DNA of 64,000 nt from Sulfurimonas aquatica (GTDB lineage Bacteria > Campylobacterota > Campylobacteria > Campylobacterales > Sulfurimonadaceae). The notes beneath the pieces were generated by a model. It had not been told where the DNA came from and searched no databases. It was given only the letters and a program-made list of their open reading frames with translations. Positions 37,141 to 56,624 of this stretch are shown piece by piece. Made by a program: the position numbers and the translations under genes. How positions within the stretch are numbered: the first letter of the stretch is position 1; each line of letters starts with the position of its first letter. The stretch spans positions 2,356,001 through 2,420,000 of the forward strand of contig NZ_CP046072.1 of assembly GCF_017357825.1 (NCBI RefSeq), given 5' to 3'.

Positions 37141-37196
37141 TTGTTACTATCTTGTAACCTTGATGAAATAGATTGGTAATCTTCCTCTTTTATACT
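37141..37196 (+). promoter_or_regulatory. Pho-box promoter of the repeat lipoprotein
   Basis: Four half-sites at strict 11-bp period: TTGTTAC (37141), TTGTAAC (37152), ATGAAAT (37163) and TGGTAAT (37174-37180). Ten bases later comes the -10 TATACT (37191-37196). No -35 hexamer is present, as expected for a PhoB-activated promoter. Confidence 0.75.
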
Positions 37197-40265: not shown

Positions 40266-40275
40266 TTTTCCCCTT

Positions 40276-40306
40276 GTAACTAAGTAGAGTTAAACTACTT
40301 GGTTAC
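40276..40306 (+). terminator. Terminator of the repeat lipoprotein
   Basis: Twelve-base arms (GTAACTAAGTAG at 40276-40287, CTACTTGGTTAC at 40295-40306, one G-U pair) with a 7-base loop, followed by ATTTATAT. It starts 11 bp after the stop codon. Confidence 0.7.
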
Positions 40307-40329
40307 ATTTATATACCACTTTTATAACC

Positions 40330-40358
40330 TTGTAACCATTTTGTCACTTTCGCGTAAT
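40330..40358 (+). promoter_or_regulatory. Pho box of the DUF3450-TonB operon
   Basis: Three half-sites at 11-bp period: TTGTAAC (40330-40336), TTGTCAC (40341-40347) and GCGTAAT (40352-40358). TTGTCAC equals a classical E. coli Pho half-site. Unlike the other sites, no good -10 stands 10 bp downstream; TATATT at 40378 is further off. Confidence 0.65.
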
Positions 40359-40418
40359 CTTTCTAAAACCTACTTCATATATTCTTTCACCAATATTCCA
40401 TAACACCACGGAGAAAAA

Positions 40419-41192
40419 ATGAATTTTAAAACAAAAAAAATAGTTTATTCACTTGCTTTATCTGCAAGCCTACTCTCATCAACTCTTAACGCTAGCACAA
40501 ATGAGAAACTTGTAAACTCTATCATAGAGCTTAGAGGAGATGTTGAAAATCTTTATACAGACATTAAAGAGAACAAAGAGAGTTACCACTCTCAGATGAA
40601 ATCTCTCTCTATGCAGATTACAGATTCTGAGGCTCAGATAAACAGAAAGTCTACCGCTATTAAATTAGCGAAAAATGAGTTAGAAAAAATCAAGACTCAG
40701 ATTAAAGAGACTTCATCTGGAAACTCTGAGATTAAACCTTTAGTTTTAAACGCTCTTACTCTTTTAGAGCAAAGTATAAATGAAGGCTTACCTTTTATGG
40801 TTGACTCTCGCGTTGCTGATCTTCATAAAATCAAAGCAGACCTTGAAGAGGGACTTATCACAAATGAAAAAGCACTCTCTCTTACTTGGGCGTCATATGA
40901 CGACACTATTCGCGTTACTAAAGAGATAGGACTTTTCAAACAGCAGATAGACTTTAAAGGTAAAAAAGTTTTGGCTCGTATTGCGAAACTCGGTTCAGTC
41001 GCAATGTTTTTCTCAACGCCATCAAACGAAGTTGGATTTGTAGTAAAAGAAGCTAACAAGTACAGCTACAAACACATCACAAATCCTGAAGACATTAAAA
41101 AGATAGTTACTCTTTTTGACGCGCTACAAAAGCAGATTAGAACTGGATACTTTGAACTTCCAAATGCATTAGTTTTACAAGGAGCTAAATAA
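40419..41192 (+). CDS. DUF3450 periplasmic coiled-coil protein
   Basis: A secreted protein of 257 residues with a signal peptide (to about LNAS) and long helices with heptad-like pattern over residues 25-110, then a DUF3450 C-terminal part (RVADLHKIKADLEEGLI, FKQQIDFKGKKVLARIAKLGSVAMFF). DUF3450 proteins are the constant first partner of TtpC-ExbB-ExbD-TonB systems in Vibrio and Shewanella. They are thought to work with TtpC in the periplasm, though their exact action is unknown. It is coupled to ttpC by TAATG. Confidence 0.88.
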   Translation: MNFKTKKIVYSLALSASLLSSTLNASTNEKLVNSIIELRGDVENLYTDIKENKESYHSQMKSLSMQITDSEAQINRKSTAIKLAKNELEKIKTQIKETSSGNSEIKPLVLNALTLLEQSINEGLPFMVDSRVADLHKIKADLEEGLITNEKALSLTWASYDDTIRVTKEIGLFKQQIDFKGKKVLARIAKLGSVAMFFSTPSNEVGFVVKEANKYSYKHITNPEDIKKIVTLFDALQKQIRTGYFELPNALVLQGAK

Positions 41193-42499
41193 TGAAAATC
41201 TTAACACTTATATTTTTAATGGCGTTTAGCCTTTTAAACGCAGATGAGCTTTCTAACGCTTATCAAAAAGAGTTCACTTTCTTAAAAGCACAAAAGTCAG
41301 AGCTTCAAACTAGACTCAAAAAAGAGAAATCTTTTCAAAAAAAAGAGTTAGCAAAAGCAAAAGCAAAAGTACAAAGCTTACAAAACAAGCTTGTAACTCT
41401 TTCACAAACTAATGAGACAATAGCAAAACAGATAGACAAATCTGCTCTAATGCTAGAAGACAAAAACTCTAACAAACAGATATCTTCATCTGTAGTTATA
41501 CAAGCGAAGTCTCTTCTTGGCGAGTACGCCATAGCTGTAAATGACACTAAAGATATGGACGTAGTTGCAGTAATGGATAAGGCATTTAAAGAGACCTCTT
41601 CTTTATATAAAAAGCTCTCTTCAGTTCAAACTACTAAGGGTAAGTTTTATCTAGTAGATGGAACAACTGCTGAGGGAGAGATAGTAAAAGTTGGAAATAT
41701 TGCAGCTTATGGAATGAGTTCAAATGCTAAAGGTGCACTCGCACCAGCTGGAAATGGCGAGTATAAAGTATGGAATAAAGATACAACAGCTGACGCTTTG
41801 GCATTTGCAACTGCACAGCCTAAACGCGATGTTAAAATCTTTATTTATGAGAACCTTGACAAAGATATCGAGTACACAAAAGAGAAGAGTATAGAGGAGA
41901 CATTAGCAGGTGGTGGAACTATCGGTTACATTATTTTAGCTCTTGGAGCTTTAGGTGTACTTCTTATTCTTGCTAGAATCTTTCTGCTTGCAAAATCTGG
42001 CTCAAACGTAAAAGAGATCACAGATGTTGTAATCTCAAAAGTTGAAGCGGGTCAGGCTCACGAAGCTCTTGAAGCTATTAAATCATACAAGGGTGCAACC
42101 GCTCGCGTTATTAAAGCGACACTTAGAAATATTGACAAAGAGAGAGACCATATCGAAGATATCGTAACTGAGAACATCCTAAATGAGAGCTCAAACATAG
42201 ATAGATTTGGCAACTTTGTGCTTGTGCTTGCAGCTGTTGCTCCACTACTTGGACTTCTTGGAACTGTAACGGGAATGATTGCGACTTTTGACATCATTAC
42301 AACTCATGGTACGGGTGATCCTAAACTTCTTTCAGGCGGTATCTCTGAAGCACTTGTAACAACGATGCTTGGTCTTGTTGTAGCGATTCCTCTACTTCTT
42401 TTAGGAAACCTTATGAGTGGATGGGCTCAGAGTATTAAAGACTCTATGGAGCAATCCGCTCTTCACATTGTAAACCTGTTTGAGATAAACAAAGCGTAA
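41192..42499 (+). CDS. ttpC: TtpC-like MotA/TolQ/ExbB proton channel protein
   Basis: A protein of 435 residues. It starts with a cleavable-type signal (MKILTLIFLMAFSLLNADE) and a large periplasmic coiled-coil part (about residues 20-240), which ordinary ExbB lacks. Three membrane helices follow: GGTIGYIILALGALGVLLILARIF, then the TolQ/ExbB core FGNFVLVLAAVAPLLGLLGTVTGMIATFD and VTTMLGLVVAIPLLLLGNL. This is the layout of TtpC, the extra subunit required by the Vibrio TonB2 system. Its start and stop overlap both neighbours by one base. Confidence 0.9.
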   Translation: MKILTLIFLMAFSLLNADELSNAYQKEFTFLKAQKSELQTRLKKEKSFQKKELAKAKAKVQSLQNKLVTLSQTNETIAKQIDKSALMLEDKNSNKQISSSVVIQAKSLLGEYAIAVNDTKDMDVVAVMDKAFKETSSLYKKLSSVQTTKGKFYLVDGTTAEGEIVKVGNIAAYGMSSNAKGALAPAGNGEYKVWNKDTTADALAFATAQPKRDVKIFIYENLDKDIEYTKEKSIEETLAGGGTIGYIILALGALGVLLILARIFLLAKSGSNVKEITDVVISKVEAGQAHEALEAIKSYKGATARVIKATLRNIDKERDHIEDIVTENILNESSNIDRFGNFVLVLAAVAPLLGLLGTVTGMIATFDIITTHGTGDPKLLSGGISEALVTTMLGLVVAIPLLLLGNLMSGWAQSIKDSMEQSALHIVNLFEINKA

Positions 42500-43113
42500 T
42501 GTTAGCCCTATCACTCTACTTCGATCAGTTTATTCATTTTATGAACGCTGGTGGGATTGTTATGTGGGTTCTTTTTGTTTTGAACCTGCCACTATGGTAT
42601 GCATTGGGATATAGATACTTTACGCTCAAACGTGGAACTCGAGGTAATATTAGACGTCTTATAGAGAAACATGAAAAACGCAAAAGCGAAAAAGTTTATG
42701 TAGGACTTTTAGATTATGCTATTGCCGATGCACTAACAGCTGCAGAGACTGCGAAGAAGATATCTAAAAAACCTAGAGAGTATATGTATGATGCGCTGTT
42801 TCCATACATCATCATTACTTCAAAATACTCTGTTTTAGTAAAAACAATAGTTATGCTTGCTCCACTCATAGGTCTTTTAGGAACTGTTGGAGGAATGATT
42901 GAGACATTTGACGCTTTACAATCAAGCTCAATGTTCGCTCAAGGCGACTCAATAGCAGGCGGTATATCTAAGGCACTTTTTACAACTGAACTTGGTTTGG
43001 TCGTAGCGGTTCCTGGTCTGATAATTGGAAAAATTTTAGATAAAAAAGAAGAGCAATTTAGTTTAGAGTTTGAACAGATTGTAGACATAATAAGTACAAA
43101 GGATGAGAAATGA
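42499..43113 (+). CDS. exbB: ExbB proton channel subunit
   Basis: An inner-membrane protein of 204 residues with three helices. The conserved core is MLAPLIGLLGTVGGMIETFDALQ, and SKALFTTELGLVVAVPGLIIG forms the third helix. With ExbD it uses the proton gradient to energise TonB. It is the second MotA/TolQ/ExbB-type gene in the operon. The start overlaps the ttpC stop (TAATG) and the end overlaps exbD by four bases (ATGA). Confidence 0.92.
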   Translation: MLALSLYFDQFIHFMNAGGIVMWVLFVLNLPLWYALGYRYFTLKRGTRGNIRRLIEKHEKRKSEKVYVGLLDYAIADALTAAETAKKISKKPREYMYDALFPYIIITSKYSVLVKTIVMLAPLIGLLGTVGGMIETFDALQSSSMFAQGDSIAGGISKALFTTELGLVVAVPGLIIGKILDKKEEQFSLEFEQIVDIISTKDEK

Positions 43114-43514
43114 GATTTAGACAAAAAAGCCAAAATGTTGATACGGTAGACGTATCACCACTTATAGATATGGTTTTCATACTTTTAATCTTTTTTATGG
43201 TTACCACGACTTTTGTTAAAGATATGCAACTTGAACTCAATCGCCCTTCTGCGGCTTCGGCTTCACTAGCATCCACAAAGATAACTCGCGTTTACATCGA
43301 TAACTCTAACGAGATTTACATCGACAACCAGCCAGTTAAACTTTGGGCGGTTCAGAGTAAACTAAGAGACATATTAAGAACTGCGACTGAAAAGTCAGTT
43401 TTAGTCATCACAGATACAGACATTCCCGTTGGAACGCTTATAGACGTTGTAGATGAGTGTCGTATGAGTGGTGCTAAAGACGTTGCCGTTTCTACTACTA
43501 AAGAGATGGGATAA
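43110..43514 (+). CDS. exbD: ExbD biopolymer transport protein
   Basis: A protein of 134 residues with a single membrane helix containing the essential aspartate (SPLIDMVFILLIFFMVTTTF) and a periplasmic domain that ends with the conserved TLIDVVDECRMSGAKDVAVS. It partners ExbB in the TonB motor. The ATG overlaps the exbB stop (ATGA), and tonB starts 8 bp after its end. Confidence 0.93.
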   Translation: MRFRQKSQNVDTVDVSPLIDMVFILLIFFMVTTTFVKDMQLELNRPSAASASLASTKITRVYIDNSNEIYIDNQPVKLWAVQSKLRDILRTATEKSVLVITDTDIPVGTLIDVVDECRMSGAKDVAVSTTKEMG

Positions 43515-43522
43515 GCAAGTTC

Positions 43523-44158
43523 ATGTCTCAAAAAAAATATAGCTCAAAGGGTAGAAGCTTTTTAGCGTTTCTTGTAATGCTTGGAGGTGCTGTACTAATG
43601 ATGATATTGGTAGTTTCCTTTAACAAAAGCGTAAAAGAAAAAGAGCAAGTGGTAAAAAAAGAGGTAAGACAGATAAAGTCTGCTAAAACACAGAAAAAAG
43701 CAAGTAAACCTAAGCCTAAACCAAAGAGTAAGCCTAAAAAAGCGCAACCAAAAGCTCCACTACCAAACATGAACTCTCTGCTTGGTGGCGTAGCGATGAA
43801 TATACCAGAGTTTACAACTGATAATATCGCAGGAGATTCTAACCAACTCCTTGAAGATATAGCAGAAGATGCGATTATGAATGAGAACACGGTAGACGTT
43901 AAACCTAAGGTTCTCTCCCGCCCTCCTCTGGAGTATCCTGCAGATGCCGCAAAAAACGGTATTAAAGGTTATGTGGTTATTAACCTTCTAGTAGGAAAAG
44001 ATGGAAGTGTGGAACTTGCTAAAGTTTTAGAGTCTCAGCCTGTTGGCGTGTTTGACGAAGCTGCCCTAAACGCTGTTCGTACTTGGAGATTTTCTCCCGC
44101 AATGTACAAAGCAAAGCCTGTAAAAATGTGGGCTAAGCAAAAAATTAGATTTCAATAA
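43523..44158 (+). CDS. tonB: TonB energy-transducing protein
   Basis: A protein of 211 residues with an N-terminal membrane helix (FLAFLVMLGGAVLMMILVVSF), a Lys/Pro spacer (KPKPKPKSKPKKAQPKAP, about residues 62-79) and the C-terminal TonB domain with the pattern RPPLEYPADAAKNGIKGYVV, then FDEAALNAVRTWRFSPA. It should contact the TonB box of the receptor encoded two genes downstream. The operon structure suggests a dedicated rather than general TonB. Confidence 0.92.
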   Translation: MSQKKYSSKGRSFLAFLVMLGGAVLMMILVVSFNKSVKEKEQVVKKEVRQIKSAKTQKKASKPKPKPKSKPKKAQPKAPLPNMNSLLGGVAMNIPEFTTDNIAGDSNQLLEDIAEDAIMNENTVDVKPKVLSRPPLEYPADAAKNGIKGYVVINLLVGKDGSVELAKVLESQPVGVFDEAALNAVRTWRFSPAMYKAKPVKMWAKQKIRFQ

Positions 44159-44169
44159 AGGACTTGATT

Positions 44170-45483
44170 ATGATAAGCAATAAATTGCAATGCAAAAAAT
44201 CACTAAATGATTTTTGTAAAAAAACAATACTAACAACTTTATCTCTGCTAGTCCTTTTAAACGTGTCTAGTTATGCTAAAACTATTGATGACAGCGTAGA
44301 TCATATTGGTCTTGCGACAATGATGATATATGATGCAAGGTATAAAAAAGCTAAAGAGGAGTTAGACCTAGTAGATAAGAAATCTCCTAAATTTGATGCT
44401 GCAAATTACTATACGGTTCTTGGTGTTTACAACTCTAAACTTACAAATACAAAAGAGGCGATAGAAGCTTACAAAAAAGCGATAGAGGCGACTAAAACAA
44501 AAGAGTTTCTTGCTCCTAAAGTTATAACGCAGGAGAAGTATCTCTTCTCTATAGCTAGTTCAAAAAAAGAAGAAAACACAACTCCTAAATTTGACACGGA
44601 GGCTAAACGCCAAGATAAGATAGAGCAACTTTATATGTACCTAACGCAAGAGTACTACAAGTTAAAAGATTACAAAAACACAGTTGATTCACTCCAAAAC
44701 GCAGGCGAGAGAGGAAAAAGTCGTGCTGGTCTTTATACTCTCAGAGCTGAGTGTTACTACAAACAAGCTAAGCATTCTGAAACTTTTACTGCTTTAAACG
44801 AGGGGATCAAAAGATTTCCTGATGATAGTAAACTGTTAAAACAGAAGTTCTACTACTTTGCAGACCTAAAACTTTATCAAGCGGCGATTGACGCGTCAAA
44901 AGTTTATATGGACAAGGTTGGCGTTAGCTCTAAAGAGTATGTAGCACTTGCACAAATGCTTATAGGTGCAAACCAGATAGATAGTGCCATAGCACTTTTA
45001 GAAGAGGCAAAACTAATGTTTGCTAAAGATGCGAAAATTGGCATTTTACTTGGGCATATGTATCTTAAAAAAGATATGAAAAACACAACCGCTCACCTTT
45101 TTGAAGAGAGCTCTTACTACGACAAGCAGTATTTAAAAGACGCAGTTGAGATGAACCGTCGCGCTGGAAACAATCTCCATGCACTTTACCTCAACACTCA
45201 AAACATTGACAAAGTAGAAAAACTAAAACAGAAAATCGCTATCTATCTAAACGCAGGTGAATACAGAAAAATTATAGGTTTACAAAAAGCTCTTAAACGC
45301 TACAAGATGCTTGATGATGAGAACTTAAGATATGCGCTTGCTTACTCATACTACTCTGTAGGTGATTATGAAAACTCTGAATCTCATCTAAAGTATATCT
45401 CTGATAGTGAGCTATTTAGCAAAGCGACAGTGATAAGAAAAAATATAGAAAAATGTACAAATGACTCTATGGAGTGCTTATAA
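44170..45483 (+). CDS. TPR-repeat protein of the TonB operon
   Basis: A protein of 437 residues with a signal-like N terminus (ILTTLSLLVLLNVSSYAK) and helical repeats typical of TPR, e.g. AANYYTVLGVYNSKLTNTKE, YLTQEYYKLKDYKNTVDSL and AQMLIGANQIDSAIALLEEA. A TPR protein occupies the same slot after tonB2 in Vibrio and Shewanella operons. It is probably periplasmic and helps assembly of the TonB machine. The ATG at 44170 has AAAGGA upstream; a TTG at 44164 is an alternative. Confidence 0.85.
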   Translation: MISNKLQCKKSLNDFCKKTILTTLSLLVLLNVSSYAKTIDDSVDHIGLATMMIYDARYKKAKEELDLVDKKSPKFDAANYYTVLGVYNSKLTNTKEAIEAYKKAIEATKTKEFLAPKVITQEKYLFSIASSKKEENTTPKFDTEAKRQDKIEQLYMYLTQEYYKLKDYKNTVDSLQNAGERGKSRAGLYTLRAECYYKQAKHSETFTALNEGIKRFPDDSKLLKQKFYYFADLKLYQAAIDASKVYMDKVGVSSKEYVALAQMLIGANQIDSAIALLEEAKLMFAKDAKIGILLGHMYLKKDMKNTTAHLFEESSYYDKQYLKDAVEMNRRAGNNLHALYLNTQNIDKVEKLKQKIAIYLNAGEYRKIIGLQKALKRYKMLDDENLRYALAYSYYSVGDYENSESHLKYISDSELFSKATVIRKNIEKCTNDSMECL

Positions 45484-48400
45484 ATGAAAGCCTTATTTAA
45501 AACTATTACCCTACTTTTACTACTCTCATCATCAATTTTAGCAGATGAGACTGGTTCTGCTTCAATCTTCTCATTCTTAAATGGAGTGGCATTAGAGAAA
45601 AATGAAGTTCTCATCGATGGATCTTACAAGTACTTTAGCGATGAAGATGGAAGTGTTGAGCTTATCCTTGAAGTTGGAACACACCAGATAGAGATATTTG
45701 CAAAAGATGAAAATGGTGCAAACCTTGGTTATGCTAAAAAATCTATAGAGATTAAAGAGGGACGTGACACTCAAGTTATCGCTACATTTAATGATGAAGG
45801 ATTAATACCTCAAATAGAAGTGGATACTCCTCTTGGAAATTCAGATACGATAACGGCAGATAAAGAGAACACTGGACTACTCCATGGTCTTGTTCTAACT
45901 TCTGATAAAAATCTTCCAATACCTAATGCTAGGGTATTTGTTAAAGGTACCTCTATAGATGCTAAGAGTGATGAAAATGGTAACTTTTATGTTGAGATAC
46001 CTGCTGATGTAAACATAAGCATATCTATAGTTCACTCTGAGTACAGCTCTCAAACACTCAACAATATAGTTGTGCAAAAAGATGACACTATCAACAAAGA
46101 GATAAAACTTACTCCTGCGAGTATGGAACTTGAAGAGTTTATAGTTCTTGCACCTAAGGTACAAGGTTCTATCGCTACTATTATGGCTGAAGAAAAAGAG
46201 AATAGTGCTATAACAAACATAGTTGGTGCTGCTGAGATGTCTAAAAAAGGCGATTCAACTGCAGCTGGTGCACTTAGACGTGTAACAGGTGTAACACTTG
46301 TTGATGGAACAGATGTTTATGTTAGAGGCCTAGGTGGTCGCTACTCTAATGTTGAGATGAACTCACTCCCTCTACCTTCTCCAGACCCACAAAGAAGAAC
46401 GGTTCCTCTTGATATCTTTCCATCTGCAGTAATCAGTTCTATGAAAGTTCAAAAGAGTGCAACTGCTGATATTCCCGCTTCATTTGGTGGTGGATACGTT
46501 GACATCAGAACTAAAGGAAAAACGAAAGAGAACTATTTGAAAATCACCACTGAGATGAAACAAAACTCAAACAGTGGAAAAGCTGTAAACTCTTATGAAG
46601 GAAGTACGACTGACTGGATGGGAGTAGATGATGGGTATAGATATATCCCAGTAGAAATTCTTAATGCTTCACAAATAGTTGTAGGAGAAGTAGTTCCTAC
46701 TTTTGATGCACGCAACAACCAAGCATATACGACTGCAATTACAAACAGACTATTTACTTCAAATAAAGAGACTCTTCCTTTAGGTGGAAAAATGACACTA
46801 GAGGGTGCCTATAACTTAGAGATAGCAGATAAACATGAGCTCTCTTTTTTCGCGAACTACTCTTATGGTCAAGATCATACTTATAGAGAAGAGAAATACT
46901 TCAAATACTCTTATAATAAAACAACTGACTCTCTATACACAGATCCTGAACAGTATGGAGACAACTACACAACACTCAACAGATACACAAACGCAGGTAT
47001 GTTTAACCTTCACTACAACTATGCAGACGTATTTAACCTCAAATACACAAAACTTTATAGTAAAATTTCTGAAAAGGTGACTAAGGTATCTGATGGTATT
47101 GCAAACTCAGATGATGACTGGAAAATCCGTTATGACCTTAACTGGGAAGAGAGAACTCTTGATGTTAACCAACTCACGGGTGATCTTAAGTATGAAGTAG
47201 CCGATTTTGAAAATATTTTTACATTTGGTAGTGAGCTTGCACTTGCTGACCTTAACCAACCATCTAATTATAAATATGCTTATCTTAGAGATGTTAGGTT
47301 TGATGGTGTTGTAGTTGGAGAACCTTACTTAGATAGGTTTTCTCCAAATGCGTTTTTAAACCTTACATCACAAGATGAGCTCTTTGCTCTCTCACTAAAC
47401 AACAAGACTATCTTAGATTTTTTCAGTGAAAAAGATTACATAGAAGTTGGTCTTATTAATAGTGCAAAAACTAGAGAGTCCAGATATAACAAGTACTTAA
47501 TGAACAAGAGTACTTCTGATAAGTTAACTGATGATATCGACTCTATTTACGATGCAAGTATAAGAAATAACTACGATGAAACATTTAGACTTGATATCGC
47601 GTTTCAACCAGCTTACTGGTACGATGCACAAGTTGATGAAACTAGCTACTTCACAAACTTCTTCTTAAAGCCTCTTAAAGAGCTAGAGATATTAATAGGA
47701 GCTAGACAGACTAACTTTACTCAAACTGTTTACCAATATACAAACAACAATGACGCGTTAGCGCCGATAGAGAGTGTGCCAGAGTCTTTAGCGTTTAACT
47801 CTTTACTTCCAAGTTTGGGGATAAAGTATATCTTTGATAAGAAAAACCAGCTTAACTTTGCGTTTGCTCAAACTTATATAGTTCCCGATCTAAGAGAATT
47901 TACTAGTGCTGAGTACTTTCATCCTTATGAAGTAGCTACGGTTCAAGGTAATCCAGACCTTGTAAATACAAATATCTATAACTATGATTTGAAGTATTCA
48001 CACTACTTTTCTGATACTGAAAGTTTAAGCTTTGGAGTATTTTACAAGTACCTAGATAAGCCAATTGAAGATGTACAGCTACCATCATCGTCACTACCGC
48101 GTTATAGTTATGATAACGCTGACTATGCGACTCTTTATGGATTTGAGATAGATGGTCGTAAGAGTTTTAATACAATTCACAGCTACTTAAAAAATTACTA
48201 TATATCAGGAAACTTCTCATATACAAAATCAGTAGTATCTCTTAGAGAAGAGCAAATAAGTACTTATACAACAAACAACCGCGAGCTCCAAGGTCTTTCG
48301 CCTATGGTCATAAATGCATCTCTTGGTTATGAAAGTAAAGGAAGAGATGTGACTCTATCATATAACAAAATGGGTGAGCGTATTCGCAAGGTAGGAATGG

Positions 48401-48618
48401 TAGATGGTAATGATGAGTTTCCAGACTTCTATGAAGTACCTCCTCAGGTTCTTGACTTTGTATGGATAGAGGGTTTTGACAATGGTCTTAGCCTGAAACT
48501 CAAATGTCAAAACCTACTTGATGAGGAGACTATTTGGTATCAAGGAAGTACAAACAACATTACCAATAAGTTTAAAGTTGGTAGGTTTTATAGTTTGGCA
48601 ATCGCTTATAAGTACTAA
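45484..48618 (+). CDS. TonB-dependent outer-membrane receptor
   Basis: A protein of 1044 residues with signal peptide MKALFKTITLLLLLSSSILA. Two small beta-sandwich domains come first (about residues 22-105 and 125-210; the second is carboxypeptidase-regulatory-like, with NARVFVKGTSIDAKSDENGNF). The plug follows at about 215-345, with VYVRGLGGRYSNVEMN and the PASFGGGYVDI segment. The rest is the barrel, ending FYSLAIAYKY. The start directly abuts the TPR stop. Because the whole operon is headed by Pho boxes, the ligand is probably phosphate or an organophosphate, but this is inference. Confidence 0.88.
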   Translation: MKALFKTITLLLLLSSSILADETGSASIFSFLNGVALEKNEVLIDGSYKYFSDEDGSVELILEVGTHQIEIFAKDENGANLGYAKKSIEIKEGRDTQVIATFNDEGLIPQIEVDTPLGNSDTITADKENTGLLHGLVLTSDKNLPIPNARVFVKGTSIDAKSDENGNFYVEIPADVNISISIVHSEYSSQTLNNIVVQKDDTINKEIKLTPASMELEEFIVLAPKVQGSIATIMAEEKENSAITNIVGAAEMSKKGDSTAAGALRRVTGVTLVDGTDVYVRGLGGRYSNVEMNSLPLPSPDPQRRTVPLDIFPSAVISSMKVQKSATADIPASFGGGYVDIRTKGKTKENYLKITTEMKQNSNSGKAVNSYEGSTTDWMGVDDGYRYIPVEILNASQIVVGEVVPTFDARNNQAYTTAITNRLFTSNKETLPLGGKMTLEGAYNLEIADKHELSFFANYSYGQDHTYREEKYFKYSYNKTTDSLYTDPEQYGDNYTTLNRYTNAGMFNLHYNYADVFNLKYTKLYSKISEKVTKVSDGIANSDDDWKIRYDLNWEERTLDVNQLTGDLKYEVADFENIFTFGSELALADLNQPSNYKYAYLRDVRFDGVVVGEPYLDRFSPNAFLNLTSQDELFALSLNNKTILDFFSEKDYIEVGLINSAKTRESRYNKYLMNKSTSDKLTDDIDSIYDASIRNNYDETFRLDIAFQPAYWYDAQVDETSYFTNFFLKPLKELEILIGARQTNFTQTVYQYTNNNDALAPIESVPESLAFNSLLPSLGIKYIFDKKNQLNFAFAQTYIVPDLREFTSAEYFHPYEVATVQGNPDLVNTNIYNYDLKYSHYFSDTESLSFGVFYKYLDKPIEDVQLPSSSLPRYSYDNADYATLYGFEIDGRKSFNTIHSYLKNYYISGNFSYTKSVVSLREEQISTYTTNNRELQGLSPMVINASLGYESKGRDVTLSYNKMGERIRKVGMVDGNDEFPDFYEVPPQVLDFVWIEGFDNGLSLKLKCQNLLDEETIWYQGSTNNITNKFKVGRFYSLAIAYKY

Positions 48619-48626
48619 CATAAAAA

Positions 48627-48660
48627 GCGTAACCAAAAAGTAATGCAAAGTCTCTATAAT
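48627..48660 (+). promoter_or_regulatory. Pho-box promoter of the orphan phoB-like pair
   Basis: Half-sites GCGTAAC (48627-48633) and AAGTAAT (48638-48644) are 11 bp apart. After a gap of 10 bp comes a perfect -10, TATAAT (48655-48660). The first gene starts 26 bp later. Confidence 0.75.
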
Positions 48661-48686
48661 ATAAGCATATAAATAAGAGGTTTGAT

Positions 48687-49361
48687 ATGAGTCATAAAAT
48701 AGTAATAGTTGAAGATGAAGAGGATTTACTAGATTTACTTGAATACAATCTCTCTAAAGAGGGCTTTGACGTTGTTGGGTTTTTAAACACTAAAACAGTT
48801 GAGACTCTTTTAGAAGAAGAGGAGATTGATCTTATCATCATGGATAGAAATCTTCCCGGTGTTGAGGGAAGCGAGTATATACAATCTTTAAGAGACAACG
48901 GCATTCAAACGCCAGTTATTTATCTCAGTGCTAAAGATAGCGACTCAGAAGTTGAAGAGGGTTTTTTGCGCGGTGGCGATGACTACATGACGAAACCTTT
49001 TAATATGAAAGAGCTTATTCTTCGGATAAAGTCCATCTTAAGACGTACTGTTAAAAGTACATCTCAAGGGAGCATTCGCCATAAAGATTTACTCTTAGAT
49101 ATGGATGCGAGAACTCTAATGGTAGATGAAATGGTAGTTGAGATAACTAAACTGGAGTTTGACCTACTTTATGAGTTTATCCTCAACAAGAACACTATTT
49201 TAGATCGTGACTATCTCTTGCAAAACGTATGGAAAAATTCTGAGCAAAACCAGTACAAAACCGTAAACGTAGCCATCACAAGACTTAAAGATAAGATAGA
49301 CCCACAAAAGACAAAAAACTATATCCAGACTATACGCGGAATAGGTTATAAACTATCATAA
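48687..49361 (+). CDS. PhoB-like response regulator, paralogue 1 (orphan)
   Basis: An OmpR/PhoB-family regulator of 224 residues. The receiver has VEDEED, phospho-acceptor Asp53 in IIMDRNLPG, LSAKD and TKPF; the DNA-binding winged helix ends in KTVNVAITRLKDKIDP and the GIGYKLS wing. It is very similar to the two other PhoB-like regulators at 49375 and 55956, but has no kinase beside it. A Pho-box promoter precedes it, so it is probably induced by phosphate starvation itself. GAGG precedes the ATG. Confidence 0.88.
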   Translation: MSHKIVIVEDEEDLLDLLEYNLSKEGFDVVGFLNTKTVETLLEEEEIDLIIMDRNLPGVEGSEYIQSLRDNGIQTPVIYLSAKDSDSEVEEGFLRGGDDYMTKPFNMKELILRIKSILRRTVKSTSQGSIRHKDLLLDMDARTLMVDEMVVEITKLEFDLLYEFILNKNTILDRDYLLQNVWKNSEQNQYKTVNVAITRLKDKIDPQKTKNYIQTIRGIGYKLS

Positions 49362-49374
49362 GAGGATAGAGAGA

Positions 49375-50055
49375 ATGAAAGAGCAAATACTTATAGTCGA
49401 TGATGACAATGATATACTAGAGCTGCTAGAGTATAACTTGAGTGCTGCTGGTTATGATGTTCTTGGGTTTTTAAGCACAAAGCATGTCAGAAGCGTGCTT
49501 ACTCAAGAAAATGTCGACCTCATCATTATGGACAGAAACCTTCCGGACATCGAGGGAAGTTACTATGTTGAGATGCTAAGAAGTAAAAATATCAACACTC
49601 CCGTTATCATGCTCTCAGCCAAAGACTCTAGTGAAGATATCAAAGAGGGTTTTTTAAAGGGTGCGGATGATTATGTCACTAAACCTTTTGACATAGAGGA
49701 ATTGATTCTTCGTGTAAAGGCTGTTCTTAAACGCTCAAATAGAGAGTTTAAAGAGATAGTCGAAGATCTTGAGTACAAAGATATGAAGTTAGATTTAAAT
49801 CTACATAGAGTTTTGATTCAAGGAGTTGAAGTTACGTTAACAAACCTTGAAACATCTCTTTTACAAATCCTAATATCCAACAAAGGAAAAGTCTTAGATA
49901 GAGATTTTTTACTTAAGTACGTATGGAAAAGCATAGAAGATATTCACCCAAAAACAGTAAATGTAGCTATGAAAAGATTAAAAGAGAAAATCGACCCACT
50001 AAAGAGTAAAGATTATATTAAAACTATTAGAGGTGTTGGGTATATGATGGTATAA
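49375..50055 (+). CDS. PhoB-like response regulator, paralogue 2 (orphan)
   Basis: A regulator of 226 residues, 13 bp after paralogue 1 and certainly in the same transcript. It keeps VDDDND, Asp53 in IIMDRNLPD, LSAKD and TKPF, and the recognition region KTVNVAMKRLKEKIDP with the GVGYMMV wing. In its receiver, ADDYVTKPFDIEEL differs from the GGDDYxTKPFNxxEL of the others. The recognition helix is nearly the same in all three, so they may bind the same Pho boxes. Confidence 0.88.
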   Translation: MKEQILIVDDDNDILELLEYNLSAAGYDVLGFLSTKHVRSVLTQENVDLIIMDRNLPDIEGSYYVEMLRSKNINTPVIMLSAKDSSEDIKEGFLKGADDYVTKPFDIEELILRVKAVLKRSNREFKEIVEDLEYKDMKLDLNLHRVLIQGVEVTLTNLETSLLQILISNKGKVLDRDFLLKYVWKSIEDIHPKTVNVAMKRLKEKIDPLKSKDYIKTIRGVGYMMV

Positions 50056-50057
50056 AA

Positions 50058-50079
50058 GAAGACTCACTAAAGAGTCTTC
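50058..50079. terminator. Bidirectional terminator between phoB paralogue 2 and the porin
   Basis: Perfect 8-bp stem, GAAGACTC with GAGTCTTC, loop of six. On the minus strand it is followed by TTTTATA, which fits termination of the porin transcript; it begins two bases after the stop of the plus-strand gene. Confidence 0.7.
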
Positions 50080-50092
50080 AAGTAAGGAGAAA

Positions 50093-50149
50093 ATGAAATC
50101 TGTTTTATTGGGTACTTTACAAAGCCAAGGAGATGACTCTGTATTTTAA
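50093..50149 (+). CDS. Candidate 18-residue small ORF
   Basis: ATG to TAA, 18 codons (MKSVLLGTLQSQGDDSVF), behind AAGGAG with a spacing of three bases. It lies between the hairpin and the end of the porin gene, downstream of the orphan phoB pair. It has no recognisable family. The ribosome-binding site is a little too close, and a hairpin stands before it, so translation is unproven. It may be a chance ORF. Confidence 0.25.
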   Translation: MKSVLLGTLQSQGDDSVF

Positions 50150-50164
50150 GGGAGTGAAATATTA

Positions 50165-51352
50165 TTAAAAAGTTATTATCGCGTCTAACTGCACACGCTC
50201 GTAATCTGTGTCTGCAGCTTCACCATCTTTACTAGCATAGCGTGTATTATAGAACCAAGTCCCTGCAAGATACGTGTTCTTACCAAATTTATATTTTGTT
50301 CTAATAGCATGACCTTTTGAAGCTGTACCACCACCAAAGTTATCTGAGTCAGAGTGTGCACCAAGTGTAGCATCTTCTTGCAAGTCCGTATATGAGTACT
50401 TTAGCTGCCAGTCAGTAACTTCTTTAGCCTTACCTATTTGAAAAGCTACGTCATATCCAAAATTTTTCTCTGTTGCAGCAGTGTTATAGACTACTCCTGC
50501 AGCTAGTGCAAATGGTAGACCAAGTACATCTTTGAATTTAAGTTCACTAAATGCTTCTACGATATGATAGTCATTTGCAAATAGACCGCTTACCATAGTA
50601 TTACCCATGCCAGAAGTACCATTGCTATTAGAGTTATAAAGAGGTGTATTACCTTTTACTCCATCATAGTAGTAAAGTCCTGCACCTAGATTAAGTTTTG
50701 CACTCTCTAGTTTTGTTGTTCTTACATATTGTGCTAAAACAAGATTTACATCATTTTTACTTACTGAAGCCTCTGCTAGACTAGTTTGATTCATACCAAG
50801 AGTGATTATATTTGAATCATCATTGTATTGGTAGTTAATACCATCTAATGAGATATCATTATCCCAAACGAGTTGTGATTTAATAGGTCTATACATCATA
50901 TATGGTGCTCTACCTACTTTTAATATAGAGTTGCCAAATGTATAATCAATTGCTACAGCATTGAATCTCATTGAGTCCACAAAGTACTCTGAAATACCTC
51001 GTGTATCCTTATTTGCCTCTACAAAAGTTTGGTTACCTGAAGTTGGATTAGCGTTACCACTTCTCATACCAACTTCAACTTGAAGATGATCTGTAATATC
51101 AACATGTGAACCTAGTCTTAAACGGTAACGACCAAGATACTGTTTTTTTTCACTACCATCAAAGTAGTAATACTCTTTACTCTCATATCTTATTCTTAAA
51201 TCACCTTTGAAATGAAACCTATCGATTATGTTTTTTTCATGTACATTAGTTGAGTCTTTTACTTCTTCTATACGTTCGATAGGATGATCTATGTCCGATT
51301 CAGCTATTGCTAAAGTAGTGAGCATTAAAGTAGATAAAACTATTTTATTCAT
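50165..51352 (-). CDS. Outer-membrane porin, Pho-box regulated
   Basis: A protein of 395 residues with signal peptide (MNKIVLSTLMLTTLAIAES) and a barrel beginning RFHFKGDLRIRYESK, the pattern of the putative-porin family seen in many Campylobacterota. It ends in DAIITF with terminal Phe. It is divergent from pstS and has its own Pho-box promoter in the shared 141-bp gap. It is therefore probably a phosphate-starvation-induced porin, playing the role of PhoE/OprP, to which I see no sequence likeness. Confidence 0.82.
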   Translation of the reverse strand: MNKIVLSTLMLTTLAIAESDIDHPIERIEEVKDSTNVHEKNIIDRFHFKGDLRIRYESKEYYYFDGSEKKQYLGRYRLRLGSHVDITDHLQVEVGMRSGNANPTSGNQTFVEANKDTRGISEYFVDSMRFNAVAIDYTFGNSILKVGRAPYMMYRPIKSQLVWDNDISLDGINYQYNDDSNIITLGMNQTSLAEASVSKNDVNLVLAQYVRTTKLESAKLNLGAGLYYYDGVKGNTPLYNSNSNGTSGMGNTMVSGLFANDYHIVEAFSELKFKDVLGLPFALAAGVVYNTAATEKNFGYDVAFQIGKAKEVTDWQLKYSYTDLQEDATLGAHSDSDNFGGGTASKGHAIRTKYKFGKNTYLAGTWFYNTRYASKDGEAADTDYERVQLDAIITF

Positions 51353-51381
51353 TTTAATTCCTTAAATTATTTGTTGGTGGA

Positions 51382-51415: not shown

Positions 51416-51427
51416 TAAATTACAAAA

Positions 51428-51493: not shown

Positions 51494-52498
51494 ATGACTC
51501 AAATGATTAAAATTGCATTAGCAAGTACAGTTTTGTTAACATCACTAAACGCTGGTGAGATTATCAAAGGTAGTGGAGCTTCATTTCCATATAGCGTTTA
51601 CCAAAAATGGCTAAAAGCATATAATAAAGAGAGCGGTGTTAGAGTTGACTACATTAAAAAAGGCTCATCTAAAGGTATTAAAGACGCTAAAGCAAGAGCT
51701 GTCGACTTTGCTGGAACTGATAAACCACTAAGTCCAAAAGTACTTCGTAAAAATGGACTTTTACAATTTCCAGGTGTTGTTGGTGCAATCACTATGGGTT
51801 ACAATGTTCCAGGTGTTGATGGACTTAAACTTAGCAGAAGTGCAATAGTAGCTATAGCAGATGGTTCAATTACTCACTGGGATGATGCTTTAATCGCTAA
51901 AGAGAATGCAAATGTTAAGCTTCCACATGAAAAACTTACATTTGTTCACCGTGCAGATGGAAGTGGAACTACTTACAACTTTACATACTACCTAAGTAAG
52001 GTTTCAAAAAAGTGGAGAAAAAGCTTTGGTGCTAAAAAGTCTCTTTCATGGCCAGGAGATCATCATATAGGTGGTAAAACAAACTCTGGTGTTGCCGCTT
52101 TACTTAAGCAAACAGAGTATTCTGTAGGTTACATAGACTATGCAGATGCTAAAAACAATGACATAACGATGGCAACTGTAGAAAATCGTGAGGGCAACTT
52201 TATAGTTCCAACGCTAAAATCTTTTCAAACTGCCGCTGCAAAAGCAAGTCTAGATCCGAAGAAAGATTTTTATGCTGTTATAGCTGATCCAAAAGGAGCT
52301 GAGTCTTACCCAATGGTAGCTGCAACTTTTATACTTATTCCTTCGGAAAAAGCTAAGACAAATAAAGATGTAACTAAGTTTATCGACTGGTGTTATGTAA
52401 ACGGTCAAGATATAGCTATGGGCCTTGGTTTTGTACCACTACCAGACTCATTAACTGCTAAGATTAGAGCTTACTGGGATGCTAAAGGCATTAAGTAA
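51494..52498 (+). CDS. pstS: Periplasmic phosphate-binding protein PstS
   Basis: High-affinity phosphate-binding subunit of the Pst ABC importer, 334 residues with a signal peptide ending at LNA. The mature start GEIIKGSGASFPYSVYQKW, the FAGTDKPL segment and HRADGSGTTYNFTYYLS are the classical PstS phosphate-contact motifs, with the Ser/Asp/Arg/Gly residues in place. It keeps the VGAITMGYNVPGVDGL strand. It is followed by a hairpin and a second Pho promoter before pstC. Confidence 0.96.
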   Translation: MTQMIKIALASTVLLTSLNAGEIIKGSGASFPYSVYQKWLKAYNKESGVRVDYIKKGSSKGIKDAKARAVDFAGTDKPLSPKVLRKNGLLQFPGVVGAITMGYNVPGVDGLKLSRSAIVAIADGSITHWDDALIAKENANVKLPHEKLTFVHRADGSGTTYNFTYYLSKVSKKWRKSFGAKKSLSWPGDHHIGGKTNSGVAALLKQTEYSVGYIDYADAKNNDITMATVENREGNFIVPTLKSFQTAAAKASLDPKKDFYAVIADPKGAESYPMVAATFILIPSEKAKTNKDVTKFIDWCYVNGQDIAMGLGFVPLPDSLTAKIRAYWDAKGIK

Positions 52499-52525
52499 CT
52501 CTTTTTAAATTTCATACTTCAAGTG

Positions 52526-52541
52526 TCACTCTTTTGAGTGA
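52526..52541 (+). terminator. Hairpin between pstS and pstC
   Basis: TCACTC, loop TTTT, GAGTGA, 28 bp after the pstS stop, followed by a pyrimidine-rich stretch. It may let pstS mRNA exceed that of the membrane subunits, as in many binding-protein operons. Confidence 0.5.
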
Positions 52542-52558
52542 TGCTGCTTCTCCCTTGT

Positions 52559-52592
52559 TTGTAACCCTAATGTAACCAAGTTTTTATAAAAT
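52559..52592 (+). promoter_or_regulatory. Second Pho-box promoter, in front of pstC
   Basis: TTGTAAC (52559-52565) and ATGTAAC (52570-52576) at 11-bp period, then a 10-bp gap and TAAAAT (52587-52592). It is a near-perfect pair of half-sites. The pstC start lies 33 bp after. Confidence 0.75.
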
Positions 52593-52624
52593 TCCATATC
52601 AAATTTAAATAGGCTATATTCTTT

Positions 52625-53623
52625 ATGGAAAAAATATTTCAAAAACTCTCTATCAGTAGTGCGACACTTGTTTTTGTCATTCTTATTGGTATCTTCATTA
52701 CTCTTTTTATTGCTGCTAAACCAGCCATAGATGAGTTTGGATTTGACTTTATCGTAAATCCTGACTGGAACAAAGAAGTTGTGGTTGAGATTACTGACAC
52801 CCAAATTGCAGTAGAAGACTTGAGCGACCAGGGTAATGAAATCATCGATGAAGATGATATGGAAATTACTGATGAAGATGACATCATCGAAGATGAAGAC
52901 GAAGTTATGTTTGATGAAGATGAAGAAGGTACTTTAACTACAACTATCTATGGTGGCCTTGTCCCAATAGTAGGTACACTTCTTACAACTCTCATAGCTC
53001 TTGCTTTTGCTCTTCCCATCGCTATGGGTATTGCGGTGTTTTTAGCGGAAATCGCTCCTAAAAACATCTCTCACATTGTCGGTATCGCTATTGAACTTTT
53101 AGCGGCTATTCCTTCTATCATATTTGGTATGTGGGGGCTTTACTACTTCGCTCCTATAGTTGCCGATTTAGTTGGTGGTTATCAAGTTTCTCTTTTAACG
53201 GCTGGACTTGTTCTTGGCGTTATGATACTTCCATTTATGGCGGCAATTACTAGAGATAGTATGAACACAACTCCAGGCGTGCTTAAAGAATCGGCTTATG
53301 CACTAGGTGCTACAAAATTTGAAGTTATAAAAGACATCATCTTTCCATACTCAAGAACGGGTATCATCGGCTCCATTATCTTAGCATTAGGACGTGCTTT
53401 AGGCGAGACTATGGCTGTTGCGTTTCTTATTGGTTCTATCTTTGTTCTGCCATCAGCGATTAACGACCCAACAATATCTATACCTGTTGCAATGGCAAAC
53501 AACTTTGGTGAAGCAAGTGGACTCGGTGAGTCAGCGCTATTTTATCTAGCATTAATTCTTTTTGTAATAAGCTTTGCCGTAATTTCAATAGCTAAATTTT
53601 ACTTCCTAAAAAAGGCTCACTAG
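52625..53623 (+). CDS. pstC: Phosphate permease PstC with an acidic loop insert
   Basis: Inner-membrane subunit of the Pst importer, 332 residues, six helices. The permease EAA loop is at AYALGATKFEVIKDIIFP. Compared with E. coli PstC, the first periplasmic loop carries an insert of about 45 residues between Asn45-Pro-Asp-Trp and Gly102: residues 51-101 hold 26 Asp/Glu and no Lys or Arg (e.g. DEDDMEITDEDD). By topology this loop faces the periplasm, where PstS docks. The pstA gene follows without a gap. Confidence 0.94.
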   Translation: MEKIFQKLSISSATLVFVILIGIFITLFIAAKPAIDEFGFDFIVNPDWNKEVVVEITDTQIAVEDLSDQGNEIIDEDDMEITDEDDIIEDEDEVMFDEDEEGTLTTTIYGGLVPIVGTLLTTLIALAFALPIAMGIAVFLAEIAPKNISHIVGIAIELLAAIPSIIFGMWGLYYFAPIVADLVGGYQVSLLTAGLVLGVMILPFMAAITRDSMNTTPGVLKESAYALGATKFEVIKDIIFPYSRTGIIGSIILALGRALGETMAVAFLIGSIFVLPSAINDPTISIPVAMANNFGEASGLGESALFYLALILFVISFAVISIAKFYFLKKAH

Positions 53624-54427
53624 ATGCGATTATTAGCAAATAAGATATTTTTAGCGCTTTCAGTTCTCTCAGCGATGATAGGCCTTGCTTTTTTAGCTTG
53701 GATACTCATCACTCTATTTATAAAGGGCTTAGGTTCTTTTCACTTCAACCTATTTTTAAATGACCTTATCAATGGTGGTCTTAGAAACCTTATCATCGGT
53801 CAGTTTATCTTAGCAGGTCTTGCTGCGGCTATTGGTATTCCTTTAGGGATGGCAGCTGGTATCTACTTGCAAGAGTATGGCCGTGGAAAATACGCTTCGC
53901 TAATTCGTGACCTGAGCGACATCATGATGTCTGCGCCATCTATAGTTATAGGTGCGTTTGTATATGCGGTAGTTGTTGTCCCAACTGGCGGAACAAGTGG
54001 TTTTGCGGGAGCCATAGCGCTTGCAATCATGATGATACCAGTCGTTATAAATACAACTGACAATATGCTTAGCCTTGTTCCCCGTGAACTCCGTGAAGCT
54101 GGAATCGCTCTTGGCGCTTCTAAGTATCGCGTTATTTTAGATATCGTTATTAAAGCCGCTAAGGTTGGAATTATGACGGGTATACTGCTAGCGTTTGCTC
54201 GTATTATCGGTGAGACTGCACCTCTACTTTTTACGTCTGAGACGTCTAACTACTTTAGTCTTGATCTGACTGAGAGTTTTCCATCTCTCACGGTTAGTAT
54301 CTACGACTTAGCAAACGAACCTGAAGAGTCTAGCCGTGATTTGGCATGGGCTGCTTCATTTATACTTACAGTTTTGGTTTTAATCATAAACCTAACTGGA
54401 AGATTTATCACAAGAAATAAGGACTAA
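53624..54427 (+). CDS. pstA: Phosphate permease PstA
   Basis: Second membrane subunit of the Pst importer, 267 residues with six helices. It has the EAA-type cytoplasmic loop [21 protein letters not shown] for contact with PstB and [16 protein letters not shown] near the second helix. Its ATG follows the pstC stop without a base between, and pstB starts 4 bp after its end, so the operon is tightly coupled. Confidence 0.95.
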
Positions 54428-54431
54428 TACA

Positions 54432-55214
54432 ATGCCAGTAATGAACATCAAAAAATTCTCTTTTACTTATCCTGGAGTTGAGCATCCCTCTCTTCGCAAC
54501 ATTACTCTTCCAATAGAGAAAAATAAAATCACTGCGCTTATCGGTCCAAGTGGTTGTGGAAAGTCAACACTACTTCGTAGCATGAATAGAATCCATGACG
54601 TATACCCTGGAAACAAGTACGATGGAAAAATAGAGCTTCTAGACGCCGTTACGGGTGAGCGAAACAATATCTTAGAGATCCAAAAAGAGAATGAACTTAT
54701 CAAACTTCGTCAACAAGTTGGAATGATTTTTCAAAAGCCAACGCCATTCCCAATGAGCATATTTGACAATGTCGCTTATGGTCTTAAAATAGCGGGTTTA
54801 AAAAATAAAACAGAACTAGCAGATAGAGTTGAGCAAGCTTTAAAAGATGGAGCACTCTGGAAAGAGGTTCATGATAGACTAGGTAAATCGGCAATGGGTC
54901 TCTCAGGTGGACAGCAGCAGCGTTTATGTATAGCACGCGCAGTTGCCGTTAAGCCAGAAGTCATCCTTTTTGATGAGCCTACATCTGCACTTGATCCAAT
55001 TAGCACCGGAGCTATTGAAGAGCTTTTAGTTGAACTTAAAAAGGACGTAAGCATAGCGATTGTTACACATAACATGCAACAAGCTTCACGTATAAGTGAC
55101 TATACGGCGTTTATGTATCTTGGTGATTTAATCGAGTATGATAAAACAGAAAACATCTTCTTAAACCCTAAAGAGAAAAAGACTGAAGATTACATCACTG
55201 GCCGTTTTGGATAG
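54432..55214 (+). CDS. pstB: Phosphate ABC transporter ATPase PstB
   Basis: ATPase of the Pst importer, 260 residues. Walker A is GPSGCGKST, the signature [14 protein letters not shown], Walker [13 protein letters not shown] and the switch histidine in IVTHNMQQA. The PstB-specific segment [12 protein letters not shown] after Walker A and [12 protein letters not shown] in the Q-loop make the assignment safe against other ABC families. Confidence 0.96.
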
Positions 55215-55265
55215 AATCTTAAACTTTAAACTATATATAAAATAAATTGAAGGAAATAATAGAAT

Positions 55266-55925
55266 ATGCTACCAACATTTCAAACTAATTTAGACGGAAT
55301 AAAAAGTAAACTCTTAGAGATAGGCAATGGACTCCTAGAGTCAAACAAACTTATACTCTTAGCTCTTAATGATTGTGATAATGAAAAGTTCATTGAAGCC
55401 AGAGCTCATATAAAAAACATCGGGGCAAAGACTGATAAGATTGACAATGAAATCATAAAGGTTCTTGCACTCTATACACCAGAAGCAAGAGACTTAAGAC
55501 GTGTTATCGCTTACTTAAAAATCACAAATGAACTTTCACGTGCTTGTTCAAACACAAGAAGCTTCATCAGAGGTTTTACAGATGTATGCGTTGATGTTGA
55601 TGTTGCTACTATTAACGAGTATGCAGTTCCTATGCAAACATCAACAGTAAAAGCGATAGAGCTCACTCTGAGTATGATTGACTATGAAGATGAAGAGGAG
55701 ATTCAAGAGATTTATAATGATGTTCTTATAGAAGAGAACAAGACTGATGATTTGTATGAAATGGTAGAGAGAAATCTATCTCTTCAAGCAGACTCTTTGC
55801 AAAATTTTGAGAAGTTTCATAAGATGCTTAGAGCCCTTAGAAAAAGTGGTAAAATCGCTTCACGTGCTATAAGCATAGCAAATCTTCTAGTATATGCAAA
55901 GGTTGGTGGTAACTTTCATAACTAA
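55266..55925 (+). CDS. phoU: Phosphate signalling protein PhoU
   Basis: Cytoplasmic helical protein of 219 residues with two PhoU repeats; the conserved acidic patterns ETDKIDNEI-like AKTDKIDNEIIKVLALYTPEA and LIEENKTDDLYEM match the metal-binding motifs of the family. It links PstB to the PhoR kinase and keeps the Pho regulon off when phosphate is ample. It lies 51 bp after pstB and 30 bp before phoB, in the order pstSCAB-phoU-phoB-phoR. Confidence 0.94.
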   Translation: MLPTFQTNLDGIKSKLLEIGNGLLESNKLILLALNDCDNEKFIEARAHIKNIGAKTDKIDNEIIKVLALYTPEARDLRRVIAYLKITNELSRACSNTRSFIRGFTDVCVDVDVATINEYAVPMQTSTVKAIELTLSMIDYEDEEEIQEIYNDVLIEENKTDDLYEMVERNLSLQADSLQNFEKFHKMLRALRKSGKIASRAISIANLLVYAKVGGNFHN

Positions 55926-55955
55926 AAATTAGGCGACATTTGCTACAATAATGTC

Positions 55956-56624
55956 ATGAATAAAACAGTATTAATCGTTGATGATGAAGAAGATATTTTA
56001 GACTTACTTGAGTATACCTTGAGTAGTGAGGGCTATGATGTCATTACATGTGTAGATACGTCAAATATTAGAGACATACTTGATGAAGAGGATATCTCTC
56101 TCATACTTATGGATAGAAACTTACCAGGAGTCGAAGGCAGTATGTTTATAGAGAGGATTCGAACTGAGGGCTACAACCAGCCTGTTATCTATGTAAGTGC
56201 CAAAGATTTATCTGATGATATCGTAGAGGGTTTTGAACGTGGCGGTGATGACTATATAACAAAACCTTTTAATATTAACGAGCTTAAAGCTCGAGTAAAA
56301 GCTCTGATTCGTCGTACAAGTAAAACTCAAGATGTCCTCAAATACAAAGACATCTCCTATAGTCCATCAAACAAAACTTTCCAAATTGATTCTAAAGAGA
56401 TAAAACTTACAAGTCTGGAGCATGATCTTCTTTTGGAGTTCATGAAAAATCAAAATATTTTGCTCTCGCGTGAGACCCTGCTTGAAAACGTATGGAAAGA
56501 CAGTATCAATAAGCAACTCAAAACCGTTAATGTAGCCATCAAACGCCTCAAAGAAAACATAGACCCAACGGGTGAAAAAAACTATATTCAAGCAGTCCGT
56601 GGCGAGGGCTATATATTTTGTTAA
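55956..56624 (+). CDS. phoB: PhoB response regulator, paralogue 3 (paired with PhoR)
   Basis: OmpR-family regulator of 222 residues. The receiver has VDDEED, Asp53 in LILMDRNLPG, VSAKD and ITKPF. The winged helix ends KTVNVAIKRLKENIDP with wing GEGYIFC. It is the one of the three PhoB-like genes that is joined to a histidine kinase: phoR starts 7 bp before its stop. It should bind the Pho boxes listed here when phosphorylated. Confidence 0.92.
   Translation: MNKTVLIVDDEEDILDLLEYTLSSEGYDVITCVDTSNIRDILDEEDISLILMDRNLPGVEGSMFIERIRTEGYNQPVIYVSAKDLSDDIVEGFERGGDDYITKPFNINELKARVKALIRRTSKTQDVLKYKDISYSPSNKTFQIDSKEIKLTSLEHDLLLEFMKNQNILLSRETLLENVWKDSINKQLKTVNVAIKRLKENIDPTGEKNYIQAVRGEGYIFC

Follow-up and report, generated by a model that had tools for sequence, protein, structure and literature searches.

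What does a TonB-dependent receptor with a motor of its own do beside the genes for phosphate uptake? The question is raised by a locus of Sulfurimonas aquatica, a sulfur-oxidizing bacterium of marine type, which we analyzed in a window of 64,000 nucleotides (contig NZ_CP046072.1, positions 2,356,001 to 2,420,000 of the forward strand; positions below are counted within this window). In Gram-negative bacteria, the passage of phosphorus across the outer membrane under scarcity is usually credited to passive porins, and a receptor and lipoprotein under phosphate (Pho) control, together with a private motor, make a compact genetic unit with which this question could be tested. A preliminary description of the locus covered the operon of motor and receptor genes. 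Beyond it, we identified a partner gene at 37224–40265, which a perfect Pho box of its own precedes at 37141, and regulators at 48687–50055. We consider it moderately probable that the resulting eight-gene module (37224–48618) uses TonB energy to take up a phosphorus compound that is captured at the cell surface or set free there, where the homology of the energiser is observed and transport is predicted from sequence.

Pho control of both the operon and the lipoprotein gene was strongly supported, with PhoB binding and induction predicted from the promoters. The three Pho half-sites described earlier at the operon head were recovered at an exact 11-bp spacing (TTGTAAC-CATT-TTGTCAC-TTTC-GCGTAAT), the third being degenerate. 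The regulon of the 2.85-Mb genome was surveyed by pattern search only, which returned three perfect TTGTNAC-N4-TTGTNAC sites (0.66 expected by chance), two of them at 37141 and 40330. The third (G000:C1:1544603) had no phosphate gene in the ~1.2 kb of flank that was read and was not counted as a promoter. The tandem box was also conserved in orthologues. Specifically, a box matching at least 10 of 12 positions was found in 64% of orthologous promoters of the DUF3450 gene and 67% of those of the lipoprotein gene, compared to 79% for pstS/pstC, the positive control; shuffled sequences (~2–3.3%), internal operon genes (3%) and unrelated genes (5%) served as negative controls. Most of the conserved boxes lay 82–91 nt upstream of the start codon, and in the orthologue consensus as many as four half-sites preceded the operon, against two plus a TATA-like −10 element at pst.

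Protein identities were assigned with Pfam and NCBIfam profile scans of the window proteins. The scans bore out the reported gene order, DUF3450, TtpC, ExbB, ExbD, TonB, TPR and receptor, the first six of which match the energiser of Vibrio TonB2. All seven reading frames (40419–48618, forward strand) were open, co-directional and nearly gapless. Genome-wide, nine Plug-domain proteins, four TonB C-terminal domains and one DUF3450 gene were counted; the genome thus has several TonB proteins, among which the DUF3450-TtpC-type machine is unique in its type. An Rfam scan of 36900–52700 identified no RNA families. The receptor contained, in order, an N-terminal beta-domain, a CarboxypepD_reg domain, a TonB box (approximately EEFIVLAP, residues 217–224, read by eye), a Plug domain and the barrel. 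Among NCBIfam models it matched TIGR01782 (173.8 bits, under the cut-off of 310), and a sequence search of the PDB returned no match.

Synteny was compared over 40 orthologous loci from the family, and presence or absence over 200 family genomes. The lipoprotein gene adjoined the operon in 31 of the 40 loci. In eight of the nine loci without it, the receptor lay near a contig end; in one of these, L078, a remnant was found at the edge. In the ninth (L084:2-2077), the lipoprotein's usual place was occupied by a protein with Phytase-like and choice-of-anchor I domains, truncated at the contig start. Receptor and lipoprotein occurred together in 51 genomes, the receptor alone in 6, the lipoprotein alone in 5 and neither in 138 (Fisher p 8e-35, which is inexact since the genomes are related; most one-sided cases were fragmented assemblies). 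Pairwise distances of the lipoprotein and receptor were correlated at r = 0.92, those of the energiser genes among themselves at 0.90–0.95, and those between energiser and lipoprotein or receptor at 0.58–0.73 (Mantel p 0.001 each). We read this co-variation as two matched blocks, the motor and the receptor–lipoprotein pair. In the divergent subset the contrast was sharper (0.91 for lipoprotein and receptor vs. at most 0.48 between blocks), whereas in the closer subset alone the lipoprotein–receptor correlation was 0.73, below several receptor–energiser correlations, so that the two-block contrast depends on the whole set and the divergent subset. The gene at 37224–40265 is accordingly identified as the receptor's partner, placing the start of the unit at 37224 and its eighth gene's end at 48618. 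In three loci (L086, L087 and L089), the cassette was divergent, at 31–52% identity to the window, while the flanking regulator and pst genes were mostly 65–94% identical. The cassette appears to behave as a single exchangeable unit; a pattern of this kind would be expected if it were exchanged as a whole.

The placement of the operon inside a Pst-Pho region was correct, with PstS at 51494 and the remaining genes continuing through PhoR to 57997. Co-occurrence of the receptor with pstS, proposed in the preliminary description as a check, was uninformative as presence alone: PstS was near-universal in the family (161 of 200 genomes), so distance was used instead. In six of nine closed or near-closed genomes, the distance between pstS and the receptor was within 20 kb (p ~2e-9 if independent; four of these nine genomes belong to one genus). 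The commonest clustered neighbors of the cassette were porins, and PPK2-like and PitA-like proteins, recognized by eye only, recurred in a few loci. Naming the substrate from neighboring genes was rejected, as no phosphatase or nuclease recurs next to the cassette.

The partner begins with a lipoprotein signal and cysteine lipobox (...SFTGCGGG; MKLSTTIIPSFLAASLLLSFTGCGGG), judged by eye. A single repeat was modeled as a right-handed beta-helix with a predicted local distance difference test score (pLDDT) of 91, and its best structural matches were the alginate epimerase AlgG, polysaccharide lyases and many other beta-helices (Z ~23, ~10% identity). These matches indicate the fold only, a generic right-handed beta-helix class. 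A PDB sequence search with the lipoprotein gave no match. In a 22-sequence alignment, the paired acidic residues D167, D168, E171 and D189, D190, D193 and their glycines were kept across phyla, and their one-coil spacing suggests a putative metal or catalytic site. GH28-like DD motifs were seen by eye, but we assign the protein to no enzyme class. In the window lipoprotein, repeats 1 and 3 were 99% identical, which suggests recent duplication or conversion. Among orthologues, the number of repeats ranged from one to three (37224–40265; L056, L071, L055, L057), and several genomes carried a second, single-repeat ElpS-like gene of ~420 aa kilobases away from the multi-repeat gene (G007:C140, G025:C1:2157090, G049:C37:37600).

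A plasmid protein search found relatives of the lipoprotein in Pseudoalteromonas, Alteromonas, Marinobacter, Sphingomonas and Indioceanicola, and further ones in Hymenobacter, Parabacteroides, Phocaeicola, Bacteroides and Aureibacter. Nearly all of them adjoin a receptor that was also matched by the receptor search. The window protein was 37% identical (E 1e-15) to a Sphingomonas protein at an ElpS-type type II secretion system (T2SS) locus. The order in Sphingomonas and Indioceanicola is lipoprotein, receptor, T2SS genes; that in Caulobacter is CC0170 (ElpS), the CC0171 receptor and gsp (PMC2996285). By this synteny, and by similarity to the Sphingomonas/Indioceanicola-type proteins, the window lipoprotein is assigned, at the level of sequence, to the ElpS/FII kind. 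ElpS is made in phosphate starvation, is protease-accessible at the surface and is encoded next to CC0171, and its overproduction leads to more extracellular phosphatase activity (PMC2996285). FII, a beta-helix (IPR011050) lipoprotein encoded in the phoBR operon of Flavobacterium johnsoniae with a Plug and CarboxypepD_reg_2 receptor, is 31–36% identical to the Caulobacter protein; FII and its receptor are strongly up in low phosphate, and not in low iron or low nitrogen (PMC8115612).

Table 1. Features of the module and its surroundings in the window.
Feature	Position	Strand	Evidence
Tandem Pho box TTGTTAC-TATC-TTGTAAC before the lipoprotein gene	37141..37158	+	12/12 match
ElpS-like lipoprotein, 1013 aa	37224..40265	+	Lipobox FTGC; three ~320-aa right-handed beta-helix repeats
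Promoter of the energiser-receptor operon: Pho half-sites TTGTAAC 40330, TTGTCAC 40341, degenerate GCGTAAT 40352	40330..40358	+	11-bp period
DUF3450 protein (TtpB-type)	40419..41192	+	PF11932 E 6.2e-25; single copy in genome
TtpC, long MotA/TolQ/ExbB protein with N-terminal extension	41192..42499	+	PF01618 E 1.2e-27, residues 302-420
ExbB	42499..43113	+	PF01618 E 1e-20
ExbD	43110..43514	+	PF02472 E 8.8e-28
TonB	43523..44158	+	PF03544 E 1.2e-21
TPR protein (TtpD-type)	44164..45483	+	TPR_14 E 5.5e-8
TonB-dependent receptor, 1044 aa	45484..48618	+	PF13715 E 1.5e-11, PF07715 E 2.9e-9
PhoB-like response regulator 1	48687..49361	+	TIGR02154 PhoB best match, 178 bits, under curated cut-off; tree
PhoB-like response regulator 2	49375..50055	+	TIGR02154, 170 bits, under cut-off
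Porin (PF16930, Porin_5-type), divergent from pstS	50165..51352	-	10/12 Pho-like box, - strand, 51436
pstS (51494), pstC, pstA, pstB, phoU, phoB, phoR	51494..57997	+	Profile matches

The module is followed by two PhoB-like response regulators, where most relatives have one after the receptor. The PhoR-linked PhoB of the window likewise fell under the curated TIGR02154 cut-off. A separate signaling system made of the adjacent regulators was rejected, as a tree groups them with PhoB and the recognition helix is nearly the same. In total, three PhoB-like regulators (48687–50055, 55956–56624) and one PhoR were seen in the region. An 11/12 Pho box stood at 52559 before pstC. The divergent porin is possibly a passive phosphate entry route, and porin-like proteins recur in the same place in relatives. 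Directly after phoR lay a gene for OlsF, a bifunctional ornithine lipid synthase (58386–60101, forward strand; NF052615, 802 bits, cut-off 620), with a palindromic Pho-like box upstream (58313–58332); its product is likely a phosphate-free membrane lipid made in phosphate starvation. Elsewhere in the genome, a PhoX homologue, apparently a lipoprotein (G000:C1:39553-40680, locus L134), had a 10/12 Pho-like box ~120 bp upstream and could free phosphate.

A role of the module in phosphorus acquisition is likely by association, through the proximity of pstS, the ElpS/FII homology and the phytase-like protein of L084. The preliminary description had proposed that phosphate or organophosphate is actively carried over the outer membrane; its Pho control held up and the phosphorus role is likely, whereas transport itself is a prediction and the energised step could instead be export of the lipoprotein. 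In the sequence of events that we propose, low phosphate would activate PhoR together with at least one of the three PhoB-type regulators, which would bind the tandem arrays of 11-bp half-sites in front of the lipoprotein gene and the operon. The lipoprotein, whose surface location is predicted by analogy with ElpS and which would be in contact with the receptor, would then use its one to three beta-helix repeats to capture or process a phosphorus-bearing polymer or ester. Its matched receptor, powered by a DUF3450-TtpC-ExbB-ExbD-TonB-TtpD motor of its own, would bring the product to the periplasm, and PstSCAB would carry phosphate inward across the inner membrane.

Several observations weigh against this proposal. 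No transport substrate was identified in the analysis, and no phosphatase gene was found within the operon. The neighboring porin may already serve free phosphate. The beta-helix fold is common to many unrelated carbohydrate-active and phage proteins and thus carries little functional information, and the AlphaFold model of the receptor, built on a 10-row alignment, reached a pLDDT of 53, so that its binding site could not be inspected; it was left out of the fold search. In Caulobacter, intracellular phosphate was unchanged and expression of CC0171 was reported to be constitutive (PMC2996285).

The same pairing of receptor and lipoprotein could be read in the opposite direction, with an Oar-like receptor that carries the beta-helix lipoprotein out to the cell surface and a dedicated motor that drives export instead of import. 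This is unlikely in our view, but several results fit it. The pairing is one-to-one, and the receptor co-varies most tightly with the lipoprotein. The window receptor, by Pfam, has the N-terminal CarboxypepD_reg extension and Plug found in TonB-dependent secretion receptors of the Oar type, and Oar is required for PopC secretion (PMC6434023). ElpS, for its part, reaches the surface independently of the T2SS, by some other route (PMC2996285). The CarboxypepD_reg extension is absent, however, from the alpha- and gammaproteobacterial receptors that are paired with homologous lipoproteins. Bacteroidota homologues carry Asp-rich stretches (CSDDDD, CSSDDS) after the lipid cysteine, and a stretch of this kind is the ordinary surface-export signal of Bacteroidota. 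At L084, a different surface-type protein occupies the lipoprotein's usual place, and ElpS was still produced after deletion of CC0171, its localization not being reported there (PMC2996285). A phosphate-starvation secretion device, in which the receptor and its private TonB2-type motor push the lipoprotein outward, seems quite improbable to us; if true, it would account as well for the passage of ElpS through the outer membrane in the absence of the T2SS.

It is similarly doubtful that the imported cargo of the receptor is not phosphorus but something else required when phosphate is short, for example a piece of glycan that the beta-helix protein sets free or a metal for PhoX-type phosphatases. 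The best structural alignments of the repeat are to alginate epimerases and polysaccharide lyases, but this fold match is generic. Its conserved paired acidic residues, the PhoX homologue in the genome and the iron-serving TonB2-type motors of vibrios (PMC6957404) would also suit such a role, yet no glycan or metal genes are consistently linked to the cassette, and it is linked most strongly to pst and PhoB-type genes. An ordinary iron or haem system that adjoins pst by chance is very improbable: the closest characterized machines, those of Vibrio TonB2, handle iron under Fur regulation (PMC6957404), but the window system has pst linkage and Pho boxes in two promoters conserved across the family, the homologous Flavobacterium pair responds to low phosphate and not to low iron (PMC8115612), and no E. 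coli-type Fur consensus of at least 14/19 was found upstream, in a test of low power that gave one 14/19 site, within the shuffle range, at the genome's other receptors, which were meant as positive controls.

TonB-powered uptake of a phosphorus compound under Pho control would not be without precedent, and the earlier statement that this is a largely unexplored use of TonB energy was too strong. TonB-dependent receptors induced by phosphate limitation are known in Flavobacterium (PMC8115612), and PhoB controls several such receptors in Caulobacter (PMC11208175). In the open-licence literature we found no description of such a receptor packaged with a dedicated TonB2-type energiser; a search there for TonB2-type energisers and phosphate returned only the Vibrio iron paper. 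The module could also help to establish what is done by the ElpS/FII lipoproteins, which abound in low-phosphate exoproteomes.

Among known systems, the six-gene energiser of Vibrio TonB2 (TtpB-TtpC-ExbB-ExbD-TonB-TtpD; PMC6957404) and that of TonB3 have the same genes in the same order as the window, but no ElpS-like partner has been described for them, and in TonB3 the receptor gene comes first. The receptor–lipoprotein logic resembles that of SusCD/PusCD; no SusD was found among the scanned window genes, and the receptor matched TIGR01782 and not the SusC family TIGR04056. The Flavobacterium johnsoniae FI/FII and receptor genes (PUSIII/PUSIV) share the pair, whereas the described cluster has no TonB-ExbBD-TtpC-DUF3450 genes. 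Caulobacter ElpS/CC0171 likewise places a lipoprotein beside a TonB-dependent receptor in a phosphate-starvation context; T2SS genes stand downstream there, without a dedicated energiser, where the window has PhoB-like and pst genes, and the Campylobacterota receptor differs in its CarboxypepD_reg and extra N-terminal domain. All eight genes of the module occur together in Alteromonas macleodii pBGP9 and on a Pseudoalteromonas chromid, loci for which no literature on function was found. The pBGP9 genes run phoB-phoR-pstS-oxygenase-lipoprotein-receptor-DUF3450-TtpC-ExbB-ExbD-TonB-TPR. An 11/12 Pho box precedes the lipoprotein gene there, and the receptor, unlike that of the window, lies ahead of the energiser and lacks CarboxypepD_reg; the Pseudoalteromonas order is energiser, lipoprotein, receptor. 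The cassette is found in Campylobacterota and Alteromonadales, and is related to the pairs of Bacteroidota and Alphaproteobacteria.

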